64,000 bases of DNA. It comes from an uncultured Bacteroidales bacterium (lineage in GTDB: Bacteria; Bacteroidota; Bacteroidia; Bacteroidales; Paludibacteraceae). The stretch's first letter is position 1; each line of letters opens with the position of its first letter. Shown here in pieces: positions 5,163-25,260 of this stretch. Location: contig CACYZT010000002.1 of NCBI GenBank assembly GCA_902778935.1, positions 310,001 through 374,000 of the forward strand. Direction: 5' to 3'. The notes under the pieces were generated by a model. It was given only the letters and a program-made list of their open reading frames with translations, did no database searches and was not told where the DNA came from. The position numbers and the translations under genes were made by a program.

Positions 5163-7007
5163 ATGAAGCTATCGGAAATCAGAAAGGTTATCGGCAACCG
5201 GTTACGAGTGGTTGGCAATGAGGATTTGGACATCCGTCATTTGCTGATTGACAGCAGGGAATTAAAGAGCGAATGGCGACCGGACGAAGTGTTGTTCTTC
5301 GCTATCAAGACCGCCAAGAACGACGGAGCGAAGTATATCCCTGAGTTGGAAGCGAAAGGCGTGAAGGCGTTTGTGACGGAGGATGCGATAGGAGCCCTGC
5401 AAGACCTTGCGGCGTACGTGCGTACGCAGTTCAACGGTACCGTCATCGGTATAACGGGTTCGAACGGCAAGACGGTTGTCAAAGAATGGCTGTACCAGTT
5501 GCTCAAAGACGACTACACCGTTATCCGTTCGCCGAAATCGTATAACTCGCAGATAGGCGTGCCGCTGAGCGTGTGGCAGTTGGCGGGGATCAAGAATCAG
5601 GAATCAGGAATCAAGACTATAGCCATTTTCGAGGCAGGTATCAGTCAGCCCGGAGAGATGGAGAAACTGGAGCGGATTATCCGTCCGACGATAGGCGTGA
5701 TAACCTATATCGGTCATGAGCACGATGAGAATTTCCCCTCGCTGGAAGCCAAACGGGCGGAGAAGATGAAACTGTTCGTTCACTCGGAGCGCGTGATAGA
5801 AGACCCGACGCACCAGAATGTCCGCACGTGTGCGGCAGTCATGCGGGCTCTTGGTTACGATGAAGAGACGATTGCCTCGCGCATCCTACAGCAGACACAC
5901 GAAACGGTACTCAAAGTGAACCTCTCCGCGCTCGTGGATAACGTACGCTATTTCCGTTCGCTGCTCAAACCCGAGACCAAGCTGACGTGTATGGTCAAAG
6001 CGTTTGCCTACGGCGCAGGCAGCGTGGAAGTGAGCAAAGCGCTTCAAGCCAGCGGGCTGGTGGATTATCTGGCGGTCGCGGTGGCAGACGAGGGTGTTGA
6101 GTTGCGCCGCGCCGGTATCACCTTGCCGATTATTATTATGGACCCGGAAGTGGCAGCCATGGATTTGATTCTCGAGAACAACCTGGAGCCGAATGTCTAT
6201 TCGCATCAGTCGCTCAAGACCGTTATTGCAGCCGCGGACGCTAAGGGTCTGGAGCACGTACCTATTCATATCAAGATAGACTCCGGCATGCACCGTTTGG
6301 GCTTTTACAAAGAGGACATACCGTGGTTGGTGGACCGTCTGACGCACCAGAATGCCGTACAGGTTCGTTCCGTCTTTTCGCACCTCGCAGGTTCGGACGA
6401 AGCGCAGTTCGACGATTTCACACTTCAGCAAATCCAATATTTCGATGCCTGTGCCGAAGAATTGAAAAAAGGATTAGGGGATGAGAGGAGTAAGGGATTA
6501 GGAATCCTTAAACATATCTGCAACACCGCCGGCATAGAGCGATTCAGCCAATATCAGTTCGATATGTGCCGTCTGGGTATCGGTTTGTACGGTTTCTCGT
6601 TCGTGGGAGCCAAGTTGCGCAATGTATGCACGTTAGAGACCACTATCCTCTCCGTCAAGACCGTCAAAGCGGGCGAGACGATCGGTTACGGTCGTCATAC
6701 ACGGCTGAACGAAGACCGCGTCATAGCCGTCATTCCTATCGGTTACGCCGATGGTTTCGACCGTCGTTTCTCGAACTACGGCGGTGAGGTATGGGTGCGC
6801 GGCAAGCGCTGCCCGGTGGTCGGAAACGTGTGCATGGACCAAGCGATGGTGGATGTGACCGGTGCCGACGCACGTCCGGGTGACATCGTGGAGGTGTTCG
6901 GCGACCGTTTGCCGCTTGAGGAACTGGCTAACAAACTCGGAACGATAACATACGAAATTCTAACCTCCGTTTCCCGCCGTGTCCAGCGTATCTATTTCTA
7001 CGAATAA
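5163..7007 (+). CDS. murF-alr: MurF-alanine racemase fusion with a shortened MurF half
   Basis: A 614-residue fusion. The N-terminal part has MurF Mur-ligase features: 'DSREL' (30-34), P-loop GITGSNGKT (96-104), 'RSPKSYNSQIGVPLSVW' (122-138), 'IFEAGISQPGEME' and 'IGVITYIGHEHDENF' (177-191). From about residue 246 an apparently complete alanine racemase follows, with PLP lysine in MVKAFAYGAG (K279), 'HIKIDSGMHRLGF', 'HICNTAG', 'GYGRH' and 'GNVCMDQAMVDVTG'. Only about 40 residues separate KMKLF (201-205) from the racemase, where related fusions have about 240. Part of the ATPase domain and the whole C-terminal ligase domain are gone. The racemase should make D-alanine for peptidoglycan; MurF activity is doubtful. 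Residues 143-151 come from a 7-bp repeat. Confidence 0.88.
   Translation: MKLSEIRKVIGNRLRVVGNEDLDIRHLLIDSRELKSEWRPDEVLFFAIKTAKNDGAKYIPELEAKGVKAFVTEDAIGALQDLAAYVRTQFNGTVIGITGSNGKTVVKEWLYQLLKDDYTVIRSPKSYNSQIGVPLSVWQLAGIKNQESGIKTIAIFEAGISQPGEMEKLERIIRPTIGVITYIGHEHDENFPSLEAKRAEKMKLFVHSERVIEDPTHQNVRTCAAVMRALGYDEETIASRILQQTHETVLKVNLSALVDNVRYFRSLLKPETKLTCMVKAFAYGAGSVEVSKALQASGLVDYLAVAVADEGVELRRAGITLPIIIMDPEVAAMDLILENNLEPNVYSHQSLKTVIAAADAKGLEHVPIHIKIDSGMHRLGFYKEDIPWLVDRLTHQNAVQVRSVFSHLAGSDEAQFDDFTLQQIQYFDACAEELKKGLGDERSKGLGILKHICNTAGIERFSQYQFDMCRLGIGLYGFSFVGAKLRNVCTLETTILSVKTVKAGETIGYGRHTRLNEDRVIAVIPIGYADGFDRRFSNYGGEVWVRGKRCPVVGNVCMDQAMVDVTGADARPGDIVEVFGDRLPLEELANKLGTITYEILTSVSRRVQRIYFYE
5588..5615 (+). 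repeat. 7-bp tandem repeat (AATCAGG type) inside murF-alr
   Basis: Four consecutive 7-bp units, GATCAAG, AATCAGG, AATCAGG, AATCAAG, in exact register, read in frame as IKNQESGIK. The stretch lies between a conserved MurF block (SVWQL) and the beta-strand TIAIFEAG. The same unit recurs in dxs and lepB. Confidence 0.85.
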
Positions 7008-7698
7008 ACTGTGTATCGGTTACGGCGAAGCCGTCATCCAGCGCGATTTGACGTTCTCGCTTCACAAGGGCGAGATGGTGTGTATGCTGGGTGCTAACGG
7101 TTGCGGTAAATCAACCTTATTAAGAACGCTGGCGGGTTTGCAGCCTGCCCTCTCGGGCGAATACACCCGTTCGGACGCCAAGCATATCGCGCTGGTTCTG
7201 ACGGAACGGCTGTCGATGGAAAACACCACGGTTCACGATGTGGTAGCGATGGGACGATACCCTTATACGTCCTTTTTAGGCGGTTTGAGCACCGAGGACG
7301 AAGCGATTATCGCACAGGCGTTGACACAAGTGGGATTTGCCGATACGAAGGTCGGGGAAACGATGTTCAATGCTCACTCGGACGGAGAGAAACAACGTAT
7401 TCTGATAGCCAAGGCGATCGCCCAGCAGACACCTATTATACTGCTTGACGAACCGACGGCACACTTGGATTTACCGCACCGCATACTCATTTTGCGGCTG
7501 TTACGCCGGTTAGCGCACGAACAAGGCAAGACGGTACTCATCTCCACGCATGAACTGGACTTGGCGCTCGCCTTGAGCGACCGAATACTGCTGATGACGC
7601 CTCAGAAAGGCATTCTACTGGACACGGCAGCAAATCTAAAGAAGACCGATGCGTTCACTTCGGCTTTCGGAATGGACATCTTCCATCCTTTGGCTTAG
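6979..7698 (+). CDS. ABC transporter ATP-binding protein (FecE/BtuD-like)
   Basis: A 239-residue ATPase with Walker A GANGCGKST (near residue 38-46), a Q-loop region changed to 'ALVLTERLSMENTTV', signature NAHSDGEKQRILIAKA, Walker B PIILLDEPTAHLD and the switch histidine in ISTHELD. This arrangement is that of iron-siderophore, heme or cobalamin importer ATPases. The start is GTG 6979, overlapping the end of murF-alr by 29 nt. No permease or binding protein lies nearby, so the partner must be elsewhere and the substrate cannot be named. Its stop overlaps by 4 nt the stop of the convergent methyltransferase gene. Confidence 0.85.
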   Translation: MSSVSISTNKLCIGYGEAVIQRDLTFSLHKGEMVCMLGANGCGKSTLLRTLAGLQPALSGEYTRSDAKHIALVLTERLSMENTTVHDVVAMGRYPYTSFLGGLSTEDEAIIAQALTQVGFADTKVGETMFNAHSDGEKQRILIAKAIAQQTPIILLDEPTAHLDLPHRILILRLLRRLAHEQGKTVLISTHELDLALALSDRILLMTPQKGILLDTAANLKKTDAFTSAFGMDIFHPLA

Positions 7699-8837
7699 AC
7701 GCGTTCCGCATAAAAGAGCGTCGGTTTGCCCGCTACTCGGCAACCGATTACATAAGCTGTACCTCCGTCACGAAGGTGCAGTTTTTTCTTGAGTTGGTCC
7801 GGCGTGAGCGGATAGTTGCGGCAGATAATATTGGCGGTGGCATTGGCGTTGGCATCGGTTACTCTCCAAACACGACCGGGGAAGTGAGGAACCAATTGGC
7901 ATGAAGCATACAGATGGGTGTTAACGTCCAGTTTGTGCAATCCGAAACGCTGTGCAATAAGTTTGTATGCGCCGGCTTTGAGAATAGCGGCATTGGGTTC
8001 GTAGAGAAAGACCGGCTTCGCCTGACTGAACACAGACTGTCCTTCGGGCTGACAGACCGCTTCGCTGTTAGACTCTTCTTCGCGGGTGAAGGAGAACGCT
8101 TGCTCGGGTTTGTCTAAATCGATTGCTGTTATCTGCCCTTCTCCTCCGCTTAATAATAACAGTTCCTTGACCTCGTTCTTTACCGCTATGACATAGACAT
8201 CCCATAACAAAAGGGAGAGTTCTTTCGTCGCTTGTGTGATATCCAGCATCGGCGACAGTTTGAGCATAATCCGTCCGTTCTCCGTCAGATGGGCACACAA
8301 CTCCGGCAACAGTTCCACCACATTCGGCGTACAATCGGCAAGGCGAAAGACCTTTCCTCCGTGATGGTCGCGCCGCGCGGGGTCCAGGAAAAGGAGGTCA
8401 TATTTCCCTGCTGTCTTTAGGAAATCCTCGGCGGACGCGTTATGAACAGATATCGACCGGCGTTTGTCGAAGAGGGGGAAGTTATGTCCGGCTATGCGGC
8501 ATAGTTCGTCGTTCTGCTCCACATAGTCCGTGCGGTCAAACGCTTCGCTCAGAAAGAGCGTATCGACACCGTAACCGCCGGTCAGATCTAAAAGCGACCG
8601 GTCTGCTGACAAACCGCTACGCTGACAGATTTGCGCTTTGTAACGGGCTGTAGCCTCCGATGAACATTGTTCGCAACTCAGGCGCACGGGATACCACCAG
8701 TCCTCGATGGCAGCGAAGGCAGGCAGCTTGTCGGCGGTTCGTTCGCGCCCGTCCACCTGCTGCAGGAACCATCGCCACTCGTCGTCGGACAGGTGTTTGT
8801 ATTTAGAGCGCTGGAGCGCTAAGTTGGCTACCGACAT
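7695..8837 (-). CDS. Class I SAM-dependent methyltransferase with THUMP-like C-terminus
   Basis: A 380-residue protein. SAM motif I LDLTGGYGVDT (83-93), acidic motif II around YVEQND and motif IV LLFLDPARRD are clear; the DPAR tetrad suits an RNA methyltransferase. N-terminal ('WWYPVRLSCEQCSSE') and C-terminal regions agree with the PG_1098-like, THUMP-like family of Bacteroidota. The target is not known. Two hairpin repeats are read in frame: residues 71-80, directly before motif I, and residues about 256-277. A hexamer array gives NANATAN near residue 330. The start overlaps the upstream SpoIID-like gene by 35 nt, so it belongs to the leftward group starting near 12.2 kb. Confidence 0.8.
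   Translation of the reverse strand: MSVANLALQRSKYKHLSDDEWRWFLQQVDGRERTADKLPAFAAIEDWWYPVRLSCEQCSSEATARYKAQICQRSGLSADRSLLDLTGGYGVDTLFLSEAFDRTDYVEQNDELCRIAGHNFPLFDKRRSISVHNASAEDFLKTAGKYDLLFLDPARRDHHGGKVFRLADCTPNVVELLPELCAHLTENGRIMLKLSPMLDITQATKELSLLLWDVYVIAVKNEVKELLLLSGGEGQITAIDLDKPEQAFSFTREEESNSEAVCQPEGQSVFSQAKPVFLYEPNAAILKAGAYKLIAQRFGLHKLDVNTHLYASCQLVPHFPGRVWRVTDANANATANIICRNYPLTPDQLKKKLHLRDGGTAYVIGCRVAGKPTLFYAERV
7830..7859. repeat. 6-bp tandem repeat (ATTGGC/GTTGGC) in the methyltransferase gene
   Basis: Five hexamer units (ATTGGC, GGTGGC, ATTGGC, GTTGGC, ATCGGT) read on the minus strand as an alternating Asn-Ala stretch (TDANANATAN). A second such array lies at 11470-11493 in the sugar kinase gene. 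Confidence 0.7.
8009..8073 (-). repeat. Three hairpin repeats of the CTGTCAG...GGTC family in the methyltransferase gene
   Basis: On the minus strand three units follow each other: CTAACAG-CGAAGC-GGTC, CTGTCAG-CCCGAAGGA-CAGTC and CAGTCAG-GCGAAGCC-GGTC. They are read in frame as roughly residues 256-277, in a loop before 'FLYEPNAAILKAG'. Confidence 0.75.
8592..8628 (-). repeat. Hairpin repeat of the CTGTCAG...GGTC family before SAM motif I
   Basis: Minus-strand CTGTCAG-CGTAGC-GGT followed by GTCAGCAGACCGGTC; read in frame as CQRSGLSADR (residues 71-80), directly ahead of LDLTGGYG. Confidence 0.7.
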
Positions 8838-12234: not shown

Positions 12235-12296
12235 CAATTTAACGATTTGGCTGCAAAGGTACAAAAAATTTACGATTTAACGATTTACGATTTACT
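12235..12296. repeat. 7-bp type repeat (GATTTAC/GATTTAA) around the kinase promoter
   Basis: Units of the ATTTACG/ATTTAAC type at 12268-12296, and a second short piece at 12237-12249, flank a minus-strand TACCTTTG (12261-12254). At the expected -33 position (23 nt upstream) there is no TTG; the repeat occupies it. Confidence 0.6.
12254..12261 (-). promoter_or_regulatory. -7 box of the sugar kinase promoter
   Basis: Minus-strand TACCTTTG, a perfect TAnnTTTG box, 28 nt before ATG 12225. The usual TTG 23 nt upstream is missing because repeat sequence lies there. Confidence 0.55.
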
Positions 12297-12353
12297 ATTT
12301 TTCACTTTTTTAGGCAAAAAAGGCACATTTTCGTTAAAAATACACACGCGCGC

Positions 12354-12452: not shown

Positions 12453-14411
12453 GTGGAATACCAATATATCAACCATATCGATTCTCCGGCTGACCTAAAG
12501 AAGCTGAGTGTAGAAGAGTTACCGGCTGTGTGCGCGGAGTTGCGCAATTTCATCATTGAGGCGCTTAGCAAGAACCCCGGTCACCTTGCCTCATCGTTAG
12601 GCACGATCGAACTGACGGTAGCGCTTCACTATGTATTCGACACGCCGAACGACAAGCTCGTTTGGGATGTGGGTCATCAGGCCTACGCGCATAAGATTTT
12701 GACCGGCCGTCGCGACCGCTTCCATACCAACCGTCAGTTCAAAGGCCTGTCTCCGTTTACCAACCCTGCGGAGAGCGAATACGATGCGTTCATTGCGGGA
12801 CACGCGAGCAACAGCATATCTGCTGCCCTGGGCCTTGATATAGCAGACCGGCTTCTCCGGACAGAACACAGACCGGCTACGCCTGACAGAACACAGACCA
12901 AAACACCCACCCTTCATAATACGGTTGCTATCATAGGTGACGGAGCGATGACAGGCGGACTGGCTTTCGAGGGCGTGAACAACACCTCGATGGACAAGAA
13001 CAACCTGCTTATCGTGCTGAACGACAACCATATGGCCATCGACCCGCTCAAAGGCGGTTTCACGCAGTACCTGGTCGATTTGACCACCAGCGCGACGTAC
13101 AACAAATGGCGTTGGCGGTTCTACCGTCTGGCGGTGAAGTTGCATCTTGTGGATGAACGGAGGAAACAGGCTATCTTGCGCCGCAACAACAACCTGAAGG
13201 CGATGCTCAGCAAACAGCCGAACAATATCTTCACGGGTTTGAACATCCGCTATTTCGGCCCGACCGACGGTCATGACGTAGAAGGACTCGTTCGTATCTT
13301 AAGCGAGATAAAGAACCACCGCGGTCCGAAAGTGCTGCATATCATCACCAAGAAAGGCAAGGGATACGCTCCGGCGGAGAACGACCAGACCGTTTGGCAT
13401 GCCCCTGGAGAGTTCAATGTGGAATCAGGAATCAGGAATCAGGAATCAGGAGCAAACACACCGCCGTTATGGCAGGAGGTGTTCGGAGAGACGCTGCTGG
13501 AGTTGGCGAAAAAGAACGAGAAGATAGTGGGTATCACGCCGGCTATGCCGTCCGGGTGCTCCATGAGTATCATGCAGAAAGAGTTGCCAGACCGCGTGTT
13601 CGACGTTGGTATAGCGGAAGGTCATGCCGTGACATTCAGTGCCGGCTTGGCGAAAGCAGGTATGCTACCCTACTGCAATATCTACTCCACTTTCCTGCAA
13701 CGCGCGTACGACAACATCGTTCATGACGTAGCGCTGCAGAACCTGCATGTAGTGCTGTGTATCGACCGCGCAGGCATCGTAGGCAACGACGGAGCGACAC
13801 ACCACGGTTTGCTCGACCTGGCTTATCTGCGTCCTATTCCGAACATGCAGATCTGTGCGCCACGTACGGCGGAGGACCTGCGTCAGATGATGCAACTGGC
13901 AGAGACGATGGACGGACCGGTGGCGATTCGGTATCCGAGAGGAAGAACAAACCTCTCCCCGACCCTCCCCTCAAGGGAGGGAGTTAGGTACGGCAAGGGC
14001 GTGAAACTGCGGGACGGAGACGATATCGCCGTACTGACCATCGGCGCGATAGGAAACACGATGAGCGAAGCCATCGAATCTGTCAGTAAAACGGTCAGTC
14101 AGTCCGAAGGACGGTCTGTCAGCTATGCTCACTACGACATGAGGTGGTTGAAGCCGATGGACGAGGAGATATTGCATGAAGTGGGTAAGAAATTCAAGAC
14201 CATCGTGACCGCCGAAGACGGAATGATTGCCGGCGGACTGGGTAGCGCTGTATTGGAATGGATGGCGGAACACGGCTACACCCCGCACGTCATCCGACTG
14301 GGAATAAACGACCAATTTGTAGAACACGGTTCTACGAAAGAACTATATCATATGCTTAAATTAGACAAGGAGGGCTTATGCGAATCGTTATTGCAGGCGC
14401 AGGAGAAGTAG
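12453..14411 (+). CDS. dxs: 1-deoxy-D-xylulose-5-phosphate synthase
   Basis: A 652-residue thiamine diphosphate enzyme that joins pyruvate and glyceraldehyde 3-phosphate in the first step of the MEP isoprenoid pathway. The start is GTG 12453 (VEYQYINHIDSPADLKKL), as in other DXS; the open frame continues upstream only into the leader. Hallmarks are 'NPGHLASSLGTIELTVALHYVF', 'DVGHQAYAHKILTGRR', the cofactor motif GDGAMTGG...NDNHMAID, 'GPTDGHDVEGL', 'DVGIAEGHAVTFSAGLA' (catalytic Glu) and 'YPRG'. Four dispersed repeats are read in frame, at about residues 131-149, 324-333, 501-511 and 543-557, each between conserved blocks. 'GLSPFTNPAESEYDAF' replaces the more usual GLSGFP. It overlaps trkA by 34 nt. 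Confidence 0.93.
   Translation: MEYQYINHIDSPADLKKLSVEELPAVCAELRNFIIEALSKNPGHLASSLGTIELTVALHYVFDTPNDKLVWDVGHQAYAHKILTGRRDRFHTNRQFKGLSPFTNPAESEYDAFIAGHASNSISAALGLDIADRLLRTEHRPATPDRTQTKTPTLHNTVAIIGDGAMTGGLAFEGVNNTSMDKNNLLIVLNDNHMAIDPLKGGFTQYLVDLTTSATYNKWRWRFYRLAVKLHLVDERRKQAILRRNNNLKAMLSKQPNNIFTGLNIRYFGPTDGHDVEGLVRILSEIKNHRGPKVLHIITKKGKGYAPAENDQTVWHAPGEFNVESGIRNQESGANTPPLWQEVFGETLLELAKKNEKIVGITPAMPSGCSMSIMQKELPDRVFDVGIAEGHAVTFSAGLAKAGMLPYCNIYSTFLQRAYDNIVHDVALQNLHVVLCIDRAGIVGNDGATHHGLLDLAYLRPIPNMQICAPRTAEDLRQMMQLAETMDGPVAIRYPRGRTNLSPTLPSREGVRYGKGVKLRDGDDIAVLTIGAIGNTMSEAIESVSKTVSQSEGRSVSYAHYDMRWLKPMDEEILHEVGKKFKTIVTAEDGMIAGGLGSAVLEWMAEHGYTPHVIRLGINDQFVEHGSTKELYHMLKLDKEGLCESLLQAQEK
12845..12898 (-). 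repeat. Hairpin repeats of the CTGTCAG...GGTC family in dxs
   Basis: Two units on the minus strand, ending TCTGTCAG-GCGTAGCC-GGTC and TTCTGT-CCGGAGAAGCCGG-TC, joined by the shared word CAGAACACAGACC. Read in frame as about residues 131-149, in the loop before VAIIGDGAMTGG. Confidence 0.75.
13423..13450 (+). repeat. 7-bp tandem repeat (AATCAGG x4) in dxs
   Basis: Four perfect AATCAGG units; read in frame as ESGIRNQESG. Identical unit to murF-alr and lepB. Confidence 0.88.
13953..13983 (+). repeat. GC-rich palindromic insertion in dxs
   Basis: A 29-nt sequence (13955-13983) identical to 23438-23466 in lepB. It contains the hairpin CCCTCCC-CTCAA-GGGAGGG. Read in frame as LSPTLPSREG, between 'YPRGR' and 'YGKGVKLRDGDD'. 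Confidence 0.88.
14080..14122 (+). repeat. Hairpin repeats of the CTGTCAG...GGTC family in dxs
   Basis: CTGTCAG-TAAAAC-GGTC, then AGTCAG-TCCGAAGGA-CGGTC, then a third flank CTGTCAG. Read in frame as SVSKTVSQSEGRSVS within the C-terminal domain. Confidence 0.78.
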
Positions 14412-17169: not shown

Positions 17170-18540
17170 ATGCGGCCCTATAAAGTTCTTTTGTTCATCG
17201 CAGCTGTAATGGCATGTCTGGCGGCACTATGCGAAGTGCTACCGGGGCGTGTTGCGTGGGGAGAGAAAGAACTGCGATGGCCGACATTAGCGGACGTGAT
17301 AGAGACAAAAGACAATGGACAAGGGACGATGGACAATCTTGTGGACACGATTATCGAACCGATTGACACCATCGTCGAACTGACAGACACTATTGCAGCA
17401 AAGGATACCATTGTTCCCGAGAAGCCGAAACCTGTGATACCGAAAGTGGCGGTCGATTCGGTCACGGACAGCCGTCTGTTCTTAGCGGCTTTCTATGAAG
17501 CGCTGGACCACGCCGACGGACAGATGATTCGCGTGTTGCACTACGGCGACAGCCAGATTGAAGAAGACCGGATGAGTCAGCAGATTCGCGAGAAGCTGCA
17601 AGCTCAATACGGCGGTAGAGGAGCAGGTTTGCTGCCTCTGGCACAGACCATACCGAGTCGGACGGTTCGTCAGGAACTATGGATGAACGATCGTAAGATT
17701 ACTCCTGCTCAAGGTCCGCGCAGATATCTGGTTTACGGTCCCAAACGCGACCAACGCACCGATGGTATGTACGGTGTGATGGGACAAGTGGCGATGATGA
17801 ACGACAGTCTGGTCAAAGGCAGCGAGGCGATAACTGCCGCTTGTACGCCGTTGGACGGCAGACCGCGCTACACGCAATGGAAAGTGTTTGCCGACACCTC
17901 CATTCATTATTCGTTTGCCGGCGATACCGTTTATCTAAGCGGAAAAGGAAAGGTGTACGGCCTTTCGCAACAGAGTTCTACCGGTGTGATTGTTGATAAC
18001 ATCCCTATGCGCGGCTGTTTGGGATTGGTCTTCACGAAGATGGACCGAGAACTGCTGACGCGCTTCTACCGCGAGCAGAATGTGCGGTTGATTATCATGC
18101 AGTTCGGCGGAAACGCCATTCCTTCGAACCAAAACCCGGGCACTATACAAGGTATCGTCAAAGGGCTTCGCGAACAAGTGCGTTACATCCGCGAATGTGC
18201 GCCGGACGCTTCTATCCTGTTCATCGGTCCGAGCGATATGCTCACGCAGACCGACGGCGAATGGCATACCTATCCGATGGTACCCTATATGGACAGACTA
18301 CTGCGCAAGATGGCACTGGAAGAGAATATCGCCTATTTCAGTCTCTATCGATGGATGGGCGGAGCAGGTAGTATGGCTCGTTGGCAAGAAATCGGTTTAG
18401 CCGGTTCGGACGGCGTCCATTTCATGCGCAGCGGAGCCCGTAAGGCGGGAAATGCCGTGGCTGATTGGATACTTAGCGGACGAACGGCGAAAGGCGAACA
18501 GACGGATGAAGTTAATAGCGAAAGCGAGGTGGTGGAATGA
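17170..18540 (+). CDS. SGNH/GDSL-type hydrolase with N-terminal membrane anchor, partner of the MBOAT
   Basis: A 456-residue protein with an N-terminal hydrophobic anchor (residues 5-22), a DT-rich linker and an SGNH hydrolase domain. The GDS block is LHYGDSQIEEDRMS, the asparagine block QFGGNAIPSNQ, and the catalytic Asp-His block GSDGVHFMRSG. Bacteroidota members of this type sit beside an MBOAT acyltransferase and are thought to modify exported polysaccharide, like AlgJ/AlgX with AlgI. Here the MBOAT gene follows with a 4-nt overlap, which supports that. Two 7-bp repeats are read in frame: KDNGQGTMDN near residue 47 and GRTAKGEQT near the C-terminus. Confidence 0.8.
   Translation: MRPYKVLLFIAAVMACLAALCEVLPGRVAWGEKELRWPTLADVIETKDNGQGTMDNLVDTIIEPIDTIVELTDTIAAKDTIVPEKPKPVIPKVAVDSVTDSRLFLAAFYEALDHADGQMIRVLHYGDSQIEEDRMSQQIREKLQAQYGGRGAGLLPLAQTIPSRTVRQELWMNDRKITPAQGPRRYLVYGPKRDQRTDGMYGVMGQVAMMNDSLVKGSEAITAACTPLDGRPRYTQWKVFADTSIHYSFAGDTVYLSGKGKVYGLSQQSSTGVIVDNIPMRGCLGLVFTKMDRELLTRFYREQNVRLIIMQFGGNAIPSNQNPGTIQGIVKGLREQVRYIRECAPDASILFIGPSDMLTQTDGEWHTYPMVPYMDRLLRKMALEENIAYFSLYRWMGGAGSMARWQEIGLAGSDGVHFMRSGARKAGNAVADWILSGRTAKGEQTDEVNSESEVVE
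17305..17338 (+). repeat. 7-bp tandem repeat (ACAATGG type) in the SGNH hydrolase gene
   Basis: Units ACAAAAG, ACAATGG, ACAAGGG, ACGATGG, then ACAATCT; read in frame as KDNGQGTMDN. The same type recurs in lepB. Confidence 0.8.
18480..18500 (+). repeat. 7-bp repeat (GCGAAAG type) at the end of the SGNH hydrolase gene
   Basis: Units ACGAACG, GCGAAAG, GCGAACA; read in frame as RTAKGEQ. Related units occur in the MBOAT and coaE genes. Confidence 0.6.
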
Positions 18541-20456
18541 GTTTCTGGGAACACATATTCGCCTTTAACGAGGAATCACCGCTGCTATTCACACAGTTCT
18601 ATTTCTGGGCATTCTTTGCGTTGGTCTATGCGCTGTTTGCGCTTATCATGGCGAAAAGCGAAGGGAGCAAAGCAAAGGTTGACGGGCAAGTATCCAATGG
18701 GCGTTTGCACCTACGGAATGTGTATCTGCTGTTCGTCAGTTGGTTCTTCTACTACAAGACAAGCGGTTTGTTTCTGCTCATACTGGCGTTTATCACGATA
18801 AGCGATTGGTTGATTGCGGGGCGGATAAAAGCGAGCGGCGAAGGGCGCAAGGCGAAAGCATGGCTCTGTCTGTCGGTCGTGATTGACCTCGGTTTGCTGG
18901 CTTATTTCAAGTACGCCTATTTCTTCACGAATATGGTAAACGACCTGTTCGGAACGGGTTTTCGGGTGTTTGATATTTTTGCGTATGTGGGTAACGGATT
19001 TGCGGGGGCAGGCCGTTTCAGCGTAGATACGATTATTCTGCCGGTAGGTATATCGTTCTATATCTTCCAGGTCATTTCCTATACTGCCGATGTATTCCAT
19101 AGGCGCATACAACCGGTAAAGAACATCCTTGATTTCGGATTCTATGTATCGTTCTTTCCGCAATTAGTGGCCGGTCCTATCGTGCGTGCCGAGGAGTTCA
19201 TTCCGCAGCTCTACAAACCATTCCGCCTGAGCCGCAGAGCGTTCGGCATAGCGGTATTTTGGATACTAAACGGATTGGCGAAGAAGATTATCATGTCCGA
19301 TTATCTGGCGGTTAATCTCATCGACCGCGTGTTTGACAACCCGCTGTTGTTCTCCGGTTTTGAGAACCTGTTTGCCCTCTTTGCCTATTCGCTACAGGTG
19401 TATGCCGATTTCTCGGGGTATACGGACATCGCTATCGGCGTGGCAATGCTGATGGGGTTCTATCTGCCGATGAACTTCAACAGTCCTTACAAATCGCAAA
19501 GTCCGCAGGAGTTCTGGCGTCGCTGGCATATGTCGTTAGGCCGATGGCTGAAGACCTATCTGTATATCCCGTTAGGCGGTAACCGTCAGATCGGGTTCGG
19601 CACGTATTTCTGGTTAAGTCTTATAGCGTTCGTGTCCGCCGCTCTGACCGGCTGGTGGGTGTGGATATTGGTGCCCTTCGGCGTATTTATGGCGGGCGTG
19701 TTTGTCTGGAACAAATGGATGAGCCGAAAAGGGGATGCGTCTATCGAGAGCCGAAAACTGCTTTACGCGAACTTAAACTCGTTCATCACACAGGTGTTAG
19801 GCGGTTTATGGCACGGCGCCAGTTGGAACTTCATCATCTGGGGCGGTATCAACGGTATCGGTATGATTGTGGAGAAGATATGGCGTAAGATGGGTTGGCA
19901 TGTCCGCTTTGCGTCCATAACCATACTGACAGCAGGTCTGTGCGTGGCGGATTATACAACCAACCTGCCGGCATGGCGTCTGTTTGCCGTTTGGGCTGCG
20001 ATTATATGGGTGGGAACCGCTATACGCTATGTCTATTGGTTATGCGAAGGCTCAGACAACCGTTTCACAAAAGCGATGGGTACAGCTTGGGCGATTGTGC
20101 AGACGTTTACGTTTATTACGTTCACCCGTTTGTTTTTCCGCTCGAGTAGTAATCTCGATCCGGAGACGGCGAATGAAGTAGCGTGGGCGACGGCGAAGAA
20201 TATGGTTAATCAGATTGGCGGCGCATGGAGTAACGCCATCATTCCTGATTTCCTATGGGAATACCGATGGGTGGTAGCTATGTTCGTTGCCGGTATGGTC
20301 ATCCATTGGTTACCGACCAATTGGAAACGGCGTTACCGTCTGGCGTTTAGTGCCATGCCGCTATGGTTGATGGTAATAGCCGTGTGCGTGGCGATTGTAG
20401 TTATATACCAATTCGTGACGGCCGATATGCAACCGTTTATCTATTTTCAGTTCTAA
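18537..20456 (+). CDS. MBOAT family O-acyltransferase (AlgI/DltB-like)
   Basis: A 639-residue polytopic membrane protein. It has 'PVGISFYIFQVISYTADVFHRR', 'GFYVSFFPQLVAGPIVRAEEFIPQL', 'DFSGYTDIAIGVAMLMG', 'NFNSPYKSQSPQEFWRRWHMSLGRWLKTYLYIPLGG' and the catalytic-histidine block GGLWHGASWNFIIWGG, all typical of AlgI-type MBOAT proteins that pass acetyl groups across the inner membrane. It is longer than AlgI, mainly in the last about 200 residues. With the SGNH protein upstream it probably O-acetylates a cell-surface glycan; the glycan is unknown. Two 7-bp repeats near residues 39-48 and 99-108 add short basic stretches. Confidence 0.9.
   Translation: MSFWEHIFAFNEESPLLFTQFYFWAFFALVYALFALIMAKSEGSKAKVDGQVSNGRLHLRNVYLLFVSWFFYYKTSGLFLLILAFITISDWLIAGRIKASGEGRKAKAWLCLSVVIDLGLLAYFKYAYFFTNMVNDLFGTGFRVFDIFAYVGNGFAGAGRFSVDTIILPVGISFYIFQVISYTADVFHRRIQPVKNILDFGFYVSFFPQLVAGPIVRAEEFIPQLYKPFRLSRRAFGIAVFWILNGLAKKIIMSDYLAVNLIDRVFDNPLLFSGFENLFALFAYSLQVYADFSGYTDIAIGVAMLMGFYLPMNFNSPYKSQSPQEFWRRWHMSLGRWLKTYLYIPLGGNRQIGFGTYFWLSLIAFVSAALTGWWVWILVPFGVFMAGVFVWNKWMSRKGDASIESRKLLYANLNSFITQVLGGLWHGASWNFIIWGGINGIGMIVEKIWRKMGWHVRFASITILTAGLCVADYTTNLPAWRLFAVWAAIIWVGTAIRYVYWLCEGSDNRFTKAMGTAWAIVQTFTFITFTRLFFRSSSNLDPETANEVAWATAKNMVNQIGGAWSNAIIPDFLWEYRWVVAMFVAGMVIHWLPTNWKRRYRLAFSAMPLWLMVIAVCVAIVVIYQFVTADMQPFIYFQF
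18651..18678 (+). repeat. 7-bp repeat (GCGAAGG type) in the MBOAT gene, first
   Basis: Units GCGAAAA, GCGAAGG, GAGCAAA, GCAAAGG; read in frame as AKSEGSKAK on the membrane-flanking loop. Confidence 0.65.
18831..18858 (+). repeat. 7-bp repeat (GCGAAGG type) in the MBOAT gene, second
   Basis: Units GCGAGCG, GCGAAGG, GCGCAAG, GCGAAAG in exact register; read in frame as ASGEGRKAK. Confidence 0.72.
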
Positions 20457-20471: not shown

Positions 20472-20483
20472 AGCAAGTTATCT

Positions 20484-21125
20484 ATGCAGACAGTTGGCAT
20501 CACAGGAGGGATAGGAAGCGGGAAGAGCCGGATAGCTCAAGAGCTGGCGAAGCGAGGTTTCGTTGTCTATGATTGCGACCGCGAGGCGAAGCGGATTATC
20601 GAGGAGAACGAGGATGTGCAGAAAGCCATTATTGCGTTGCTGGGAGAGGAAGCCTTTATTCATTTACCATTGGGGCAGGTACCATGTACTATATACAATA
20701 CCGAATATGTAGCCAAGCGCGTTTTCTCGGAGCCGGAACTGTTAGAGCGTCTGAATGCCATCGTTCATCCGGCTGTTGGGGAAGATATCAAGAGGAAGAT
20801 ATCCGAAGGAAGAACGCTTTTGATTGAGTCGGCTATTTTGTACGAAGCGGGACTGGACCGGTTGTGCAACAGGATTATTGTGGTGGATGCGCCGGAAGAT
20901 GTTCGTATCGCGCGTGTGATTGAACGCGATTATCACGGAGAAGCGACCGGCGACAATATAAACAAGGTACGCGCTCGCATGCGCACGCAAGGAGTAAAGG
21001 CGAAAGAACTAAGGGCGAAAGGAAAAGTGTTGTTGGTTAATAATGACGGAAGAAGGACTATTGAACAATTAGCGACTGAGATAGAGGAGCAGATAACTCC
21101 CAAACAGGATAGTTCAAACAGATGA
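20484..21125 (+). CDS. coaE: Dephospho-CoA kinase
   Basis: A 213-residue P-loop kinase catalysing the last step of coenzyme A synthesis. Visible are Walker A GGIGSGKS (8-15), 'VYDCDREAKRII' (CoA-binding Asp), 'HPAV', 'LLIESAILYEAGLDRLCNRIIVVDAP' and the lid 'RARMRTQ'. A 7-bp repeat is read in frame after the lid as GVKAKELRAKGK, about residues 171-180, before the conserved 'VLLVNNDG'. The stop overlaps the start of the next gene (ATGA). Confidence 0.92.
   Translation: MQTVGITGGIGSGKSRIAQELAKRGFVVYDCDREAKRIIEENEDVQKAIIALLGEEAFIHLPLGQVPCTIYNTEYVAKRVFSEPELLERLNAIVHPAVGEDIKRKISEGRTLLIESAILYEAGLDRLCNRIIVVDAPEDVRIARVIERDYHGEATGDNINKVRARMRTQGVKAKELRAKGKVLLVNNDGRRTIEQLATEIEEQITPKQDSSNR
20994..21023 (+). 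repeat. 7-bp repeat (GCGAAAG type) in coaE
   Basis: Units GTAAAGG, CGAAAGA, ACTAAGG, GCGAAAG; read in frame as VKAKELRAKG. Confidence 0.58.
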
Positions 21126-21721
21126 TTCATAGAAGCCGATACATATTGATTTTTCTGCTTAGCGGACTAAGTATCTGTGCGTTTGGCGAGCAGCCGAAGA
21201 AGAGTATCTCGTCCACTATGCGCACATCGTTTATGCTGAACGCCTGCGTATCGAATTACAAACAGCCAGCGTTGGGTTTCACGATTGCCCGTAGCGGAGC
21301 ATTCGGATACTATGCCAATTTCATGATTGGTATGAACAGCATGCACATGGGTTACTCTTACCTCGCGGATGAAGACAACCGATTGCTGGACGGCGAGTAC
21401 AAAGGACAGATTCCATTCTACACAGGTAAACGCGCTTATAACCGTCTCTCTGCGACCGCCGGCGCGATGGTTCGTATGAAAATTCCGCTTTATCTGTATG
21501 TAGGAGCCGGATACGGATACAAGACCGAGACGCGCGAATTGCTCAACAAGCAATGGGTACAAGCAGCTACGAGTTTGGGCCATAGCGCGGTGGTAGAAGG
21601 CGGTCTTTTTGCCCGCTGGGACAATGTGACTCTGCTTGCGGGTTATTCCCTTTTCATCGGTCAGCAGAACCATTTCTATCACGAAGCCAAGGTGGGTTTA
21701 GGTTATACATTTAAGAAATAA
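21122..21721 (+). CDS. Small outer membrane beta-barrel-like protein, unknown function
   Basis: A 199-residue protein with a signal peptide (cleavage near SICAFG). The mature part shows alternating amphipathic strands with glycine-aromatic turns: 'FGYYANFMIGMNSM', 'PLYLYVGAGYGYKT', 'VTLLAGYSLFIGQ', and ends in a barrel-like strand 'AKVGLGYTFKK'. I do not recognise a named family. The start codon overlaps the coaE stop, and a lipoprotein gene follows, so the pair may form a small outer membrane unit. Confidence 0.65.
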   Translation: MIHRSRYILIFLLSGLSICAFGEQPKKSISSTMRTSFMLNACVSNYKQPALGFTIARSGAFGYYANFMIGMNSMHMGYSYLADEDNRLLDGEYKGQIPFYTGKRAYNRLSATAGAMVRMKIPLYLYVGAGYGYKTETRELLNKQWVQAATSLGHSAVVEGGLFARWDNVTLLAGYSLFIGQQNHFYHEAKVGLGYTFKK

Positions 21722-21747
21722 AACTATGCGGAAATAAAACTATGCGC
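21716..21747 (+). repeat. Tandem duplication of a 16-bp start region, with a three-codon leader ORF
   Basis: The 16-mer AAATAAAACTATGCGG is followed by an almost perfect copy (last base changed). The first copy gives ATG CGG AAA TAA (21726-21737), a MRK peptide ending 4 nt before the real ATG at 21742. Confidence 0.75.
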
Positions 21748-22272
21748 AAACAATTATACTATATCGTTCTCGTTTTGCTGGTTAGCGTTCATCTGTCTTC
21801 CTGTAAGGAAGATCCTATTCCGACGGTAAGTTTGGAGATGCTTCCTACGGAACTGGTTGGTTTGGGTGAGACGATGCTATTTGATACGCTTCCGTACACT
21901 ATTACGGAGTATATATCCGATACGATTACGCCCGATTCGATAGTGGTGGACACGCTGGTGATCGATACGTTCAGTATTGACACATTCTGGATGGATACGA
22001 TTTGTCTGTTGGGTGCTATTTCGTATGCGGGCGATGCGTTAACAGGTCCGGCTCTGCATGAGGTCGGTTTTTGCATCAACGATTATATCTGCTATCCTGT
22101 TTATGAGTCATTAGAACCGGAGACGCCGGCATTTGTCTATGATACGTTTGCGTACATCCTTCCGGTTCGTTATGACGAGAAGATGTATGTTCATTCCTAC
22201 GCCATCAACCCGTTCGGTACCGTGCGGAGTAAGACGATTCACGTGCGGATGTCGGACTTCGACGAGCGTTAA
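21742..22272 (+). CDS. Lipoprotein of unknown function
   Basis: A 176-residue protein with a lipoprotein signal (lipobox SSC, Cys21, followed by KEDP). The N-terminal half of the mature chain has repeated 'DT' units (SDTITPD, VVDTLVIDTFSIDTFWMDTI), much like the linker of the SGNH hydrolase at 17.2 kb. The rest has short hydrophobic strands and ends 'RSKTIHVRMSDFDER', suggesting a small beta domain. No family recognised. The start region is duplicated (see 21716-21747). Confidence 0.65.
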   Translation: MRKQLYYIVLVLLVSVHLSSCKEDPIPTVSLEMLPTELVGLGETMLFDTLPYTITEYISDTITPDSIVVDTLVIDTFSIDTFWMDTICLLGAISYAGDALTGPALHEVGFCINDYICYPVYESLEPETPAFVYDTFAYILPVRYDEKMYVHSYAINPFGTVRSKTIHVRMSDFDER

Positions 22273-22337
22273 TATGTGGAAAAATTGACGGATTTTGCAT
22301 AAAAGGGGCAATAAATTGCTCCTTTTTTCATATATGC

Positions 22338-22368
22338 TTGCATATATGGATAATTTTTACTATCTTTG
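22338..22368 (+). promoter_or_regulatory. Promoter of dapB
   Basis: TTG at 22338 in CTTGCATATATGG and TATCTTTG at 22361-22368, 23 nt apart, 55 nt before the ATG. Another ATATATG lies just upstream. Confidence 0.75.
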
Positions 22369-22422
22369 CACGATTTTTGTGTGTGCGTGTAAGGCGCGTA
22401 CGTGTATGTAAGGAGAAAGAAT

Positions 22423-23118
22423 ATGAGAATCGCTATTATCGGATATGGAAAAATGGGGCACATGATAGAGGATGTAGCCATTGAACGCGGACATGAGATT
22501 GTTGCGCGGATAGATGCCGGCGATGTATTTGATTTGAGAGACGCAGATGTGGCGATTGAGTTCACTACACCTGCTACCGCCAAGGATAATATTTTACGCG
22601 CGTGGGCGCAAGGAGTGCCGGTTATTTCCGGCTCTACGGGTTGGAAGCCGGAGGAATTGAAGATTGAAGATTTGAGATTGAAGATTGAGGGCAACAAGAC
22701 CATCATCTCTAATGAGGCGGGTAAGGTGATGCTGGTATGGAGCAGTAACTATTCGGTGGGCGTGAATATCACATTTGAGTTGAATAAAATACTGGCACAA
22801 ATGATGAGCACACAGCCGCAATACACTCCGAGCATCAAAGAGATTCACCATATTCATAAGCTGGATAAACCGAGCGGAACGGCAAAGACGCTGGCGGAAC
22901 AGATTCAAGATGCCGACCTATCGAAATATCGAAGTATCGAAGATATTCAGATCGAATCTATTCGCGAGGGCGAAGTGCCGGGTACGCATATTGTGACATG
23001 GGACAGCGAAGAAGATACGATTGTGCTGACGCATATTGCTAAAGGCCGCAGAGGCTTTGCGCTGGGCGCCGTTTTGGCTGCGGAGTCGTTAGCTCGACAG
23101 CAGCACGAGATTGGATAA
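22423..23118 (+). CDS. dapB: 4-hydroxy-tetrahydrodipicolinate reductase
   Basis: A 231-residue reductase of the lysine/diaminopimelate pathway. It starts at ATG 22423 after AGGAGAAAG, a good ribosome site for this group. NAD(P)-binding 'IAIIGYGKMGHMIED', 'ADVAIEFTTPATAKDNILRA', 'GVPVISGSTGW' and the catalytic/binding 'EIHHIHKLDKPSGTAKTLAEQI' are clear, with 'GEVPGTHIVTWDSEEDTIVLTHIAKGRRGFA' at the end. A 7-bp array is read in frame as ELKIEDLRLKIEG, about residues 79-90, just after the GSTGW block. It ends inside the first unit of an 11-bp array. Confidence 0.93.
   Translation: MRIAIIGYGKMGHMIEDVAIERGHEIVARIDAGDVFDLRDADVAIEFTTPATAKDNILRAWAQGVPVISGSTGWKPEELKIEDLRLKIEGNKTIISNEAGKVMLVWSSNYSVGVNITFELNKILAQMMSTQPQYTPSIKEIHHIHKLDKPSGTAKTLAEQIQDADLSKYRSIEDIQIESIREGEVPGTHIVTWDSEEDTIVLTHIAKGRRGFALGAVLAAESLARQQHEIG
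22654..22689 (+). repeat. 7-bp tandem repeat (AGATTGA type) in dapB
   Basis: Units GAATTGA, AGATTGA, AGATTTG, AGATTGA, AGATTGA in exact register. A pure array would place TGA in frame; the third unit reads AGATTTG, giving GAT TTG where a perfect unit would give GAT TGA. Confidence 0.88.
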
Positions 23119-23172
23119 ATCACTCGACAATCACCCGTGAATCACCCGACAATCACCCGCGAATCACCCGTG
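23118..23172 (+). repeat. 11-bp tandem array after dapB
   Basis: Five 11-bp units (AATCACTCGAC, AATCACCCGTG, AATCACCCGAC, AATCACCCGCG, AATCACCCGTG). The first base is the last base of the dapB stop codon. It fills half of the gap to lepB. Confidence 0.9.
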
Positions 23173-23222
23173 TTTGAGTAGAAAAAGTATCGAGATAAAT
23201 AAGGAAGAGTATTTGAACTATA

Positions 23223-24677
23223 ATGGAAAGTTTTCAAGACAGAATAAAGAATGTGCCGCGTGGCGGATGGATACGCGCGGGTATTTGGAGCGCGCTGTAT
23301 ATTGCATTCGTGATTTGGGTTGCATGGGGCGATTGGGCTTCACTGGGTTGGTTGGCGTTACTGCCGCTGATTGTGGATGCATTCACTACGAAATATATCA
23401 ACTACGGCTGGTGGAAGAAATACAGGCCAAATAACCCCTCCCCGACCCTCCCCTCAAGGGAGGGAGAGAACGAGGCAACACAAAACCCCAAGGGGAATGC
23501 GTTTCTTTATACCTTGTTTAGTTGGTTAGACGCGATTGTGTTTGCGTTAGTGGCGGTATATTTTATTAATTTGTACATTTTCCAGAACTATCAGATACCG
23601 AGTTCGAGTTTGGAGAAGAGCTTGCGTGTGGGTGATTTTCTGTATGTGAGCAAGATGGCTTATGGAGCGCGTGTGCCGCAGACGCCGTTGAGTATGCCGC
23701 TCGTGCAGCACACGATGCCGAAATGGTTAGGCGGCGGTAAGAGTTACTGCGATTGGCCTCATTGGGAATACAAGCGTCTGGCGGGTTGGACAAGTCCGCA
23801 GAAAGGCGATATCGTAGTGTTCAATTTTCCTGCCGGCGACACGGTATGTCTGAATATGCAAAATCCGGATTACTACACGCTGAAGTATTACTACGGCGAG
23901 AATGTAGTTCGTACGCGGACAGATGTGTTTGGCGAGATAGTGACACGTCCGGTGGATAGACGGGAGAACTATGTGAAGCGCTGTGTGGGAACACCCGGCG
24001 ATTCGTTGAAAATCGTGGATAATACGATTTGGACAAAGGACAATGGACAAAGGACGAAGGAATCAGGAGTCAGGAACCAGGACTCGAATGTTTTGGGAGA
24101 GTGGATTCGTGAGCCGGAGAGAGAGGGTGTGCAGTTGAATTACTATGTACAAACAGACGGACATGTGTTTGGCGCTAAATACTTAGAGAAGCTTGGCGTG
24201 AGTGTAGCCGACCGCGTGCAGATAGATGCACAGACCTGGCATTTCCCGTTGACAGAGGCGATGCGTGAGGAGTTGGCGAAGAATCCTCATGTGCTGAATA
24301 TGTTCGTTGAGCCGGAAGAGCGCGGTGGAGAAGTGTATCCGCTGGGCCACAACGAATGGACGCGCGATAACTACGGTCCGATTTATATTCCGCGGAAGGG
24401 CGACAAAATCATGATTACGGAGGAGAACTACTGGGTATATAAGCGGATTGCGGACGCCTATGAGTTCAAACCGATGTGTATCGGCGAGGAGTACGAGTTT
24501 TCGATGGACTACTACTGGATGATGGGCGACAACCGGCATAATTCGGCGGACAGCCGTTATTGGGGTTTTGTGCCTGAAGACCATATTGTCGGTAGGCCGG
24601 TATTCATCTGGCTCTCTATCGACAAAGACAAGCACAGTATCCGTTGGAACAGGATTGGCAGAGGAGCGAAGAGATAG
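23223..24677 (+). CDS. lepB: Signal peptidase I
   Basis: A 484-residue inner membrane protease that removes Sec signal peptides. Membrane segments lie near residues 20-50 and 95-120. The Ser nucleophile block is YQIPSSSLEKSL (Ser129 likely) and the Lys block ENYVKRCVGTPGD (Lys252); 'YYWMMGDNRHNSADSRYWGFVPEDHIVGRPVFIWLS' near the C-terminus is conserved. Two dispersed repeats are read in frame: SPTLPSREG at 73-81, between the two membrane segments, and a 7-bp array giving about residues 271-290 after 'IVDNTIW', directly beyond the catalytic lysine block. The catalytic residues are intact. Confidence 0.93.
   Translation: MESFQDRIKNVPRGGWIRAGIWSALYIAFVIWVAWGDWASLGWLALLPLIVDAFTTKYINYGWWKKYRPNNPSPTLPSREGENEATQNPKGNAFLYTLFSWLDAIVFALVAVYFINLYIFQNYQIPSSSLEKSLRVGDFLYVSKMAYGARVPQTPLSMPLVQHTMPKWLGGGKSYCDWPHWEYKRLAGWTSPQKGDIVVFNFPAGDTVCLNMQNPDYYTLKYYYGENVVRTRTDVFGEIVTRPVDRRENYVKRCVGTPGDSLKIVDNTIWTKDNGQRTKESGVRNQDSNVLGEWIREPEREGVQLNYYVQTDGHVFGAKYLEKLGVSVADRVQIDAQTWHFPLTEAMREELAKNPHVLNMFVEPEERGGEVYPLGHNEWTRDNYGPIYIPRKGDKIMITEENYWVYKRIADAYEFKPMCIGEEYEFSMDYYWMMGDNRHNSADSRYWGFVPEDHIVGRPVFIWLSIDKDKHSIRWNRIGRGAKR
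23435..23466 (+). repeat. GC-rich palindromic insertion in lepB
   Basis: Second copy of the 29-nt element found in dxs (hairpin CCCTCCC-CTCAA-GGGAGGG), in the same orientation and the same reading frame (SPTLPSREG). Confidence 0.88.
24031..24085 (+). repeat. Composite 7-bp tandem repeat in lepB
   Basis: Seven units in unbroken 7-bp register: ACAAAGG, ACAATGG, ACAAAGG, ACGAAGG, AATCAGG, AGTCAGG, AACCAGG. It joins the ACAATGG type of 17.3 kb to the AATCAGG type of murF-alr and dxs. Read in frame as KDNGQRTKESGVRNQDS. Confidence 0.9.
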
Positions 24678-24735
24678 TGCTGTGGTTTTAGAGTAAAAGC
24701 ATTTTAAAGACATAAACACAAAAAATATTGTTGAA

Positions 24736-25260
24736 TTGATACTACCGACTGCATATTTGCCGCCCTTGTCGTACATGGAAGCGCTGATGCGCGAACCGGC
24801 GACAATCGAACAGATGGAGACGTTTGAGAAACAGACGTTCCGCAACAGGGCGATTATAAGAGACGCCAAAGACGAGTTGGTGCGGCTGACGATACCGGTG
24901 AAGAAAGTGGAGCATAAACAGCTCACGCGTGACATCGAGATCAGTTACCAGACGCGATGGCAACACCAACACTGGATTACGCTCGTAAGTGCCTACCAAC
25001 ACACGCCGTATTTCATGTATTTCGCGGACTACCTGAAGCCGTTCTACGAACGCGAGTACAAATGGCTGATAGACCTGAATGACGAGCTGAACGCGACGAT
25101 TGTGAGTTTGCTGAAAAAAGAAAGACCGGCTTTAGTCGAAAGTCAAAAGTCGAAAGTCGAAAGACGCACAACGGATTGGAGCGGACAGATCTGGACAGAC
25201 AAACATCCGTGGCAAACGGAGATAAGTATATTTGATAGATTGTTTGATGAAAGAGATTGA
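24736..25260 (+). CDS. WbqC-like family protein
   Basis: A 174-residue protein starting at TTG 24736 (ILPTAYLPPLSYMEAL). The start pattern, 'QTFRNRAIIRDAKDELVRLTIPV', 'ISYQTRWQHQHWITLVSAYQHTPYFMYFADYLKPFYE' and 'LIDLNDELN' fit the WbqC-like family, often linked to glycan or sugar-nucleotide genes and of unproven reaction. A 7-bp array near the C-terminus is read in frame as ESQKSKVER. It overlaps ilvE by 14 nt. Confidence 0.75.
   Translation: MILPTAYLPPLSYMEALMREPATIEQMETFEKQTFRNRAIIRDAKDELVRLTIPVKKVEHKQLTRDIEISYQTRWQHQHWITLVSAYQHTPYFMYFADYLKPFYEREYKWLIDLNDELNATIVSLLKKERPALVESQKSKVERRTTDWSGQIWTDKHPWQTEISIFDRLFDERD
25134..25164 (+). repeat. 7-bp tandem repeat (AGTCGAA type) in the WbqC-like gene
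   Basis: Units AGTCGAA, AGTCAAA, AGTCGAA, AGTCGAA in exact register; read in frame as VESQKSKVE. Confidence 0.85.

Follow-up and report, generated by a model that had tools for sequence, protein, structure and literature searches.

Why do genes for core enzymes carry, in frame, tandem repeats with a period of 7 bp? This question is raised by a 64,000-nucleotide stretch of DNA from an uncultured Bacteroidales bacterium of the Paludibacteraceae (G000:C2:310001-374000; the window, meaning that whole stretch), whose source genome, G000, is a 2.18-Mb assembly that is 90% complete. Heptanucleotide repeats are familiar from cyanobacteria as short tandemly repeated repetitive (STRR) sequences. We found that the heptamer arrays of the window belong to an excess of the 7-bp period that extends through related genomes, that those in genes lie mostly in poorly conserved loops, and that neighbouring arrays of one genome tend to share units. 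They are probably the product of a mutational process specific to the genus, which makes and remakes 7-bp-period DNA wherever it is tolerated, through slippage and template switching with selection as a filter.

The window was searched with Tandem Repeats Finder (TRF) and a scan for lag-7 runs at a strict (score 14) and a looser (score at least 10) cut-off, with codon and dinucleotide shuffles as controls. At the strict cut-off we detected seven arrays of period 7, three of period 11 and none of periods 5, 6, 8, 9 or 10, and the shuffles gave 0. At the looser cut-off, nine period-7 arrays stood against 0.0 in 20 codon shuffles, with one array each of periods 6, 8, 9 and 10 and four of period 11. 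A preliminary description of the window had listed ten sites with heptamer arrays inside coding sequence. Six of these were real (in murF-alr, dxs and the SGNH, dapB, lepB and WbqC-like genes), whereas the other four, of GCGAAGG types in the SGNH, MBOAT (two) and coaE genes, were at chance level: the best (18481-18498) scores 8, a value that shuffles reach 1.05 times per window, and no other reaches 8 in a lag scan of 1-31000. At the disputed sites TRF reported 18837-18858 (MBOAT) with a score of 30, its lower limit; the array that it reported in coaE (20780-20813, score 47) is of 14 bp. Pfam confirmed the host enzymes as Mur ligase/alanine racemase, DXP synthase, GDSL lipase, MBOAT, CoaE, DapB, signal peptidase S26, WbqC and aminotransferase IV.

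The six arrays lie on the plus strand inside open reading frames (ORFs), so the frame is kept, and the loops that hold them are poorly conserved in orthologues, in line with the proposed placement between conserved blocks. All were found by both TRF and the lag scan, and five are strong. In murF-alr (ORF 5139-7007), an AATCAGG array at 5589..5613 encodes IKNQESGIK; the same loop reads SQESGVK in one orthologue (L057; L numbers denote stretches or loci of relatives or of the source genome, and G numbers genomes) and has different words in further relatives. A perfect AATCAGG array at 13421..13451 encodes ESGIRNQESG in loop 2 of dxs. In dapB (ORF 22402-23118), the ATTGAAG array at 22656..22688 contains one irregular unit, ATTTGAG (22670-22676), where a regular unit would give an in-frame TGA at 22672; the site reads KIEDLRLKIE in the window and KIKNYELKIK in L097, with different heptamer words at equal length. 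The lepB gene (ORF 23223-24677) holds a composite array of GGACAAA, GGACAAT, GGACGAA, GGAATCA, GGAGTCA and GGAACCA in a single 7-bp register (24031..24082), at a site where 4 of 17 orthologues have no insert (VNG/ING) and the others have different words. This is the one case in the window of the suggested in-register fusion of unit types, although mutation within an array could give the same result. An AGTCGAA array at 25134..25163 encodes SQKSKVE in the WbqC-like gene (ORF 24736-25260), with an identical word in L035 and different words in the remaining relatives. The sixth, a weak GGACAAT-type array at 17303..17334 in the SGNH/GDSL gene (17170-18540), scores 10, beyond the shuffles. The same sites thus mostly hold other residues and other units in relatives.

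Three period-7 arrays had been missed: one at 12280-12300 (TRF and lag scan), a TTGAGAA-type array on the plus strand across the stop codon of the class IV aminotransferase ORF 25232-26290 (26280..26317), and a GGTTAAT/GGTTAAC array, listed without a strand, at the end of ORF 62032-62493 and past it (62481..62526), with akin units (AACCATT, AACCATG) recurring in L117 of the same contig. Separately, the murF-alr ORF is only 622 aa long; its Pfam Mur_ligase_M match ends at position 114 of 200 of the profile, and Pfam gives no Mur ligase C-terminal domain ahead of the racemase.

The excess was then measured in 80 named loci, each consisting of dxs with up to 10 kb on either side (1.555 Mb in total). 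The dxs relatives with named genomes are metagenome-assembled genomes labelled 'Paludibacteraceae' or 'Bacteroidales', many of ruminant-stomach origin. These loci contained 281 period-7 arrays, against 0, 2, 22, 17, 5 and 38 for periods 5, 6, 8, 9, 10 and 11, and one codon shuffle gave 0; the counts for period 14 (149) and period 21 (57) should be largely the same arrays. We took 72 of the loci (L033-L104; dxs 63-85% identical) as belonging to the genus of the window, because dxs of same-genus genomes, 24 of which were searched besides G000, is 64-87% identical, and 59 of them carried at least one array. No period-7 array was found in eight more distant loci (L105-L112; dxs 57-59% identical) or in 100 kb of G039, a member of another family. 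Density was high in G014 (21/100 kb), G005 (16/100 kb) and G016 (13/100 kb), reached 25/464 kb in G000, and was low in G013 (6/200 kb), G010 (1/100 kb) and G015 (1/77.5 kb); none turned up in the limited sequence sampled from G020 (30 kb) and G021 (12 kb). The 381 sampled arrays comprised 122 unit types.

The same pattern was seen within proteins. We collected 542 orthologues of 15 window genes (735 kb), after skipping 22 for a stop (8 of them dxs) and 13 for coverage under 70%; the aminotransferase gene was left out, since just 6 orthologues remained. The results revealed 238 period-7 arrays, compared with 0, 6, 17, 25, 2, 3 and 4 for periods 5, 6, 8, 9, 10, 11 and 12. Codon-shuffle means were 1.0 for period 7, 3.8 for period 6, 0.8 for period 8 and 3.8 for period 9. 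These counts indicate that frame-neutral periods are not favoured. The preliminary description had made its claim depend on 7-bp arrays outnumbering those of 6 or 8 bp, and it holds here, since the 7-bp class lies far above both and above shuffles in loci and orthologues alike. Columns with mean conservation below 0.5 held 227 of the 238 arrays. MBOAT had 41 arrays in 66 sequences and coaE 23 in 64; the two genes after dxs had none in 143 sequences. With genes predicted by a crude in-house script (coding fraction 0.87-0.90), 173 of 288 arrays lay wholly within genes and 48 wholly outside. Coding arrays were mostly in the stop-free orientation: of 223, 127 had a stop word on the other strand and 46 had one on the coding strand.

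The dxs gene was followed in 81 sequences (the window and 80 relatives). All 109 arrays fell at four sites, at window residues 150-175, 343-357, 517-533 and 560-579, which carry arrays in 19, 36, 22 and 30 genomes, respectively; they occurred in 57 of the 81 sequences and comprised 48 units, whereas codon shuffles gave 0.2 arrays. On a FastTree phylogeny built with the loop columns removed, presence alone requires 18, 23, 20 and 19 changes at sites 1-4, and the unit state ('none' included) requires at least 18, 32, 22 and 28 (sum 100). With at least 100 changes for 107 occupied states, most arrays must be separate events or have since changed. On this tree, array turnover appears near-independent. 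An AlphaFold2 model of DXS (28 sequences; mean predicted local distance difference test score, pLDDT, 72.0) places site 1 at the end of helix 138-158 and in the coil up to strand 177-182 (block pLDDT 50-74), sites 2 and 3 mainly in coil (10-residue block means 50-69 and 60-94) and site 4 at the end of helix 553-572 and the following coil (84-88). The E. coli-type DXS 2o1s aligns over all four sites and is shorter at sites 1 and 4.

Close relatives differed at these arrays in content and, in three clear cases, by whole units. Between L042 and L045 (dxs 94.9% identical), dxs loop 3 is a heptamer array in one and a tandem element of the GACCGGCTTCGCC family in the other, and an AGATTTG-type array between the second gene after dxs (dxs+2) and the SGNH gene differs by exactly 21 bp. 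Between L044 and L050 (90%), a TCAGCCA-type array within the coding sequence of coaE differs by 42 bp, and a GAATTGA array at the SGNH/MBOAT junction by 14 bp. Clean gain or loss, which the preliminary description had anticipated, was not the rule. Clean insertion is rare because the loops that hold the arrays already vary in size and in make-up, and an array often takes the place of a different repeat word of about the same length.

We next compared units between arrays. The unit was the same in 3.96% of same-genome pairs, compared with 1.43% when labels were permuted 1000 times (maximum 2.86%). Sharing was 16.9% at 60-300 bp, 12.1% at 0.3-1 kb, 10.6% at 1-3 kb, 3.5% at 3-10 kb, 4.4% at 10-30 kb and 1.6% beyond 30 kb; it was 2.6% between other stretches of a genome and 1.35% between genomes. 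Within dxs, 12 of 76 same-genome pairs shared a unit across loops (permutation mean 1.9; 0 of 2000 permutations reached 12). Irregular strings of at least 21 bp were shared directly by 35 of 2743 same-genome pairs and 198 of 116573 different-genome pairs, where pairs less than 150 bp apart were skipped yet counted within the 2743 and the different-genome pairs include orthologues. In L072, dxs sites 1 and 2, which lie 549 bp from each other, have an identical irregular string of at least 33 bp, with flanks alike at 11/30 and 8/30 positions; L089 has a shared 34-bp string, and its flanks, like those of L072, are no more alike than chance. Same-unit pairs less than 3 kb apart that are not both coding had the same orientation in 23 cases and the opposite in 5. 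By eye, TCAG-type words are common to lepB and WbqC of L044 and L083. These results support the earlier suggestion that arrays are copied between sites. One further proposal, that the loop-1 copy in L072 carries native loop-2 bases, was not proven, as AER/ADR-like codons occur at loop 1 in relatives too.

Some units recur across the genus. Of 101 genus genomes, 36 had three copies of GTCGAAA (as many as 29 matches in one, overlaps counted; 65 without), with 0 for the reversed control, and 12 had three copies of ACGGGTT. A phylum-wide vocabulary was rejected: of 296 phylum-spread genomes, the 6 with GTCGAAA x3 all belong to a single other genus, and 3 others match the reversed control.

Taken together, these observations point to a process in three steps. 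Short tandem heptamer arrays, whose period is evident, would arise by slippage and may change by whole units. Array sequence, including irregular units, would then be copied elsewhere, in most cases over no more than a few kb, in most cases in the same orientation, and often without flank homology; the sharing statistics argue for such copying, which would explain why neighbouring loops of one genome share units as a local 'dialect'. The likeliest machinery would be replication slippage with short-range template switching, the heptamer or a few native bases serving as microhomology. Finally, the arrays that remain within genes are in frame, occupy poorly conserved loops and mostly run in the orientation free of stops, the pattern expected under purifying selection on proteins. 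Rather than functional motifs, the arrays are probably loop fillers of nearly neutral effect. Loss of mismatch repair is not the cause, since mutS1 (matched in 40 of 41 genomes, 39 above the cut-off) and recJ (38 of 41) are present in most relatives; both are matched in G000, for which loss of MutS or RecJ was rejected. In G013, recJ (G013:C7:30475-32370) gives a two-piece match in one open frame of 685 aa, which suggests an in-frame insert near profile position 82.

Several observations weigh against this reading. Slippage theory leaves the preference for 7 over 5, 6 or 8 unexplained. The claim that arrays step by 7 stands on the three whole-unit changes above; however, across five close pairs only 6 of 32 net size differences at arrays were multiples of 7 (3 of 59 elsewhere). 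As 1 in 7 would be so by chance, stepping is weakly supported; the low count is due in part to the swapping of whole words and to poor alignment at arrays. In essential genes, gain or loss of one or two units would disrupt the reading frame, and coding arrays can therefore change only by several units at once or with compensation. Genes hold fewer arrays than expected from the 90% of bases predicted as coding, and 9-bp arrays also exceed shuffles within genes (25 vs 3.8), with 13 of the 25 in SGNH. The dxs tree is built from a single gene. Between genomes, 1.40% of pairs share a unit, more than the 0.16% given by random units of matched base composition, so some of the vocabulary is common to the genus. 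Irregular strings are also shared in inverted form (9 same-genome and 71 different-genome pairs); one genome (n034) supplies 10 of the 35 direct pairs, and pairs with similar flanks (e.g. G014 L163, 28/30) may be larger duplications.

A bolder reading, possible but unlikely in our judgement, is that the genus possesses a copying activity, indifferent to sequence and moving in 7-nt steps, which starts heptamer 'words', lengthens them and carries them from one core-enzyme loop to another. The arrays would then act as a mobile element whose identity lies in the period and not in the sequence, and the variable loops of essential proteins would be under constant rewriting in dialects peculiar to each genome.

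The window also contains dispersed elements of a more conventional kind, which bear on a rather improbable alternative: that a dispersed selfish element, similar to the Rickettsia palindromic elements (RPEs) and moved by a transposase or reverse transcriptase, gave rise to the arrays as its inserts. A tandem 25-bp palindrome-type element of the GACCGGCTTCGCC family (TRF and pattern search) lies on the plus strand at 12844..12899 in dxs loop 1, which carries 7-bp arrays in relatives. By pattern search, the core of this dispersed element, GACCGGC(T/G)(T/A)CGCC, has 11 matches in 464 kb of its own genome (window 8010, 12871 and 59559; also L118, L125 and L128), some in tandem, and is in frame in dxs. 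A 34-bp hairpin, CTCCCC...GGGAG (AACCYCTCCCCGACCCTCCCCTCAAGGGAGGGAG), occurs on the plus strand in dxs loop 3 (13950..13983) and lepB (23433..23466), in both reading SPTLPSREG in frame; the copies are 33/34 identical (dxs coordinates and identity read by eye), and most of 17 orthologues have no insert at the lepB site. Palindromic elements thus sit in frame in the same loops as arrays, one swaps with an array, and irregular array strings recur at different sites, all as an insertion element would have it. The heptamer arrays themselves, however, have no conserved sequence (122 unit types in 381 arrays, and 48 in the dxs sequences), and the flanks of same-unit arrays, in the cases inspected, are mostly unrelated, so that a larger element carrying the arrays was rejected except for one block in G014. 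There (L163:11388-12944), two sites 1.5 kb apart both have AAAGGTG arrays, an ACATAT spacer and AAAATTG arrays. Nor did an agent emerge. A RAYT transposase was rejected because the Y1 transposase has no match in G000 (90% complete) and is matched in 25 of 81 genus genomes. Reverse transcriptase has one match each in G000 and array-rich G014, yet of 25 genus genomes 6 have it, and the 19 that lack it include array-rich G005, G006 and G016. The window also has 11-bp tandem arrays (31095-31130, 54673-54710, 54709-54745 and 60511-60549); across related loci, 33 of 41 such arrays lie wholly outside genes and 2 wholly inside, the opposite of the 7-bp class.

We give little credence to a putative dedicated activity, in which synthesis or copying in 7-nt steps makes and spreads the arrays. 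The strong period specificity, the clade restriction, copying that often lacks flank homology and densities that differ by species (G014 vs G010) are what it would produce, but no candidate gene was found. Neither RAYT nor reverse transcriptase follows the trait, and a Y-family polymerase, present in 34 of 41 genomes, also occurs in array-free G039 (100 kb) and is uninformative.

It is very unlikely that the arrays are contingency loci that switch genes by single-copy changes. As 7 is not a multiple of 3, single-unit changes do shift the frame, and phase variation by heptanucleotide repeats is reported for other bacteria, such as Haemophilus HMW and E. coli NeuO. However, the hosts are mostly housekeeping enzymes (dxs, dapB, lepB, murF-alr), the arrays are short and imperfect, and in dxs, the gene examined, no out-of-frame allele was seen in 80 relatives: each has one match without frameshift in the part covered. 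Eight of the 80 translations had a stop, which in seven lay shortly ahead of the probable start and in the eighth (L096) at the C-terminus, and the flagged stops of G024 and G007 lie outside their single, stop-free matches. Selection at the protein level for repeated hydrophilic peptides, with the DNA period as a by-product, would fit the stop-free orientation of coding arrays, but it is very improbable: it predicts 3n periods (6-, 9- and 12-bp arrays together number 35 vs 238), a given unit occurs in each of the three reading frames, conservation of the unit at a site is the exception, and arrays also occur outside genes.

If a genus-specific mutational process is the right explanation, core enzymes gain new peptide sequence from it again and again, within what the proteins tolerate, which offers a rare view of mutation rewriting essential proteins, and the arrays mark core-enzyme loops tolerant of arbitrary change. 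With at least 100 sampled species, well-understood host enzymes, mismatch-repair genes and wide density differences, this genus makes the heptamer question testable. To our knowledge, the dominance of heptamers among long bacterial simple repeats has been open since 2007, and the idea that polymerase contact sets the 7-bp step is untested. Heptanucleotide simple sequence repeats of prokaryotes were reportedly treated as long simple sequence repeats (LSSR) by Mrazek in 2007. The polymerase-contact idea is credited to Mrazek in two later papers (PMC4679880, PMC4692102), of which the second lists the heptamers GGGAATC in Xanthomonas and GGGGA(C/T)T in Nostoc. The preliminary description knew of no named counterpart in Bacteroidota; MacGregor 2015, however, describes mostly intergenic TAACTGA arrays in five Bacteroidetes, one of them Paludibacter, and TAACTGA repeats also in Beggiatoaceae and Cyanobacteria (PMC4679880). 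Our literature search, mostly at the level of search records, returned no report of coding, loop-confined heptamer arrays across a genus or of unit copying between loops, and a query for Paludibacteraceae with tandem repeat found nothing. Heptamer repeats and in-frame palindromes are each known; the genus-wide, loop-confined coding heptamer process with local dialects is a variant of such repeats without precedent in that search.

How, then, do these arrays compare with known systems? They share with phase-variable contingency loci short tandem repeats, some of them coding, and differ in showing no off-state (dxs in 80 relatives), in residing in core enzymes and in being short and imperfect. 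RPEs are about 150 bp long with conserved peptides (PMC10969869). As with RPEs, the repeats of this genus occur in frame in unrelated genes, including housekeeping genes, at tolerated sites; the GACCGGC elements and the AACCYCTCCCCGACCCTCCCCTCAAGGGAGGGAG hairpin in dxs and lepB resemble this protein-coding palindrome of Rickettsia, whereas the heptamer arrays are short and have neither conserved sequence nor palindrome. The closest likeness is to heptanucleotide simple sequence repeats and LSSR: tandem 7-bp units exceed chance and neighbouring unit lengths, their distribution is sporadic, and their length varies between relatives. The published repeats, as far as the excerpted accounts go, were studied mainly as intergenic, with one or few units per genome, and 3n units were deemed likeliest in coding sequence; an intergenic position is a trait of the reported cases (Xanthomonas, Nostoc and Beggiatoaceae) more than part of how such repeats are defined. 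In contrast, the arrays of this genus lie mostly inside genes, in the loops of core enzymes, with 122 unit types sampled and units shared locally.

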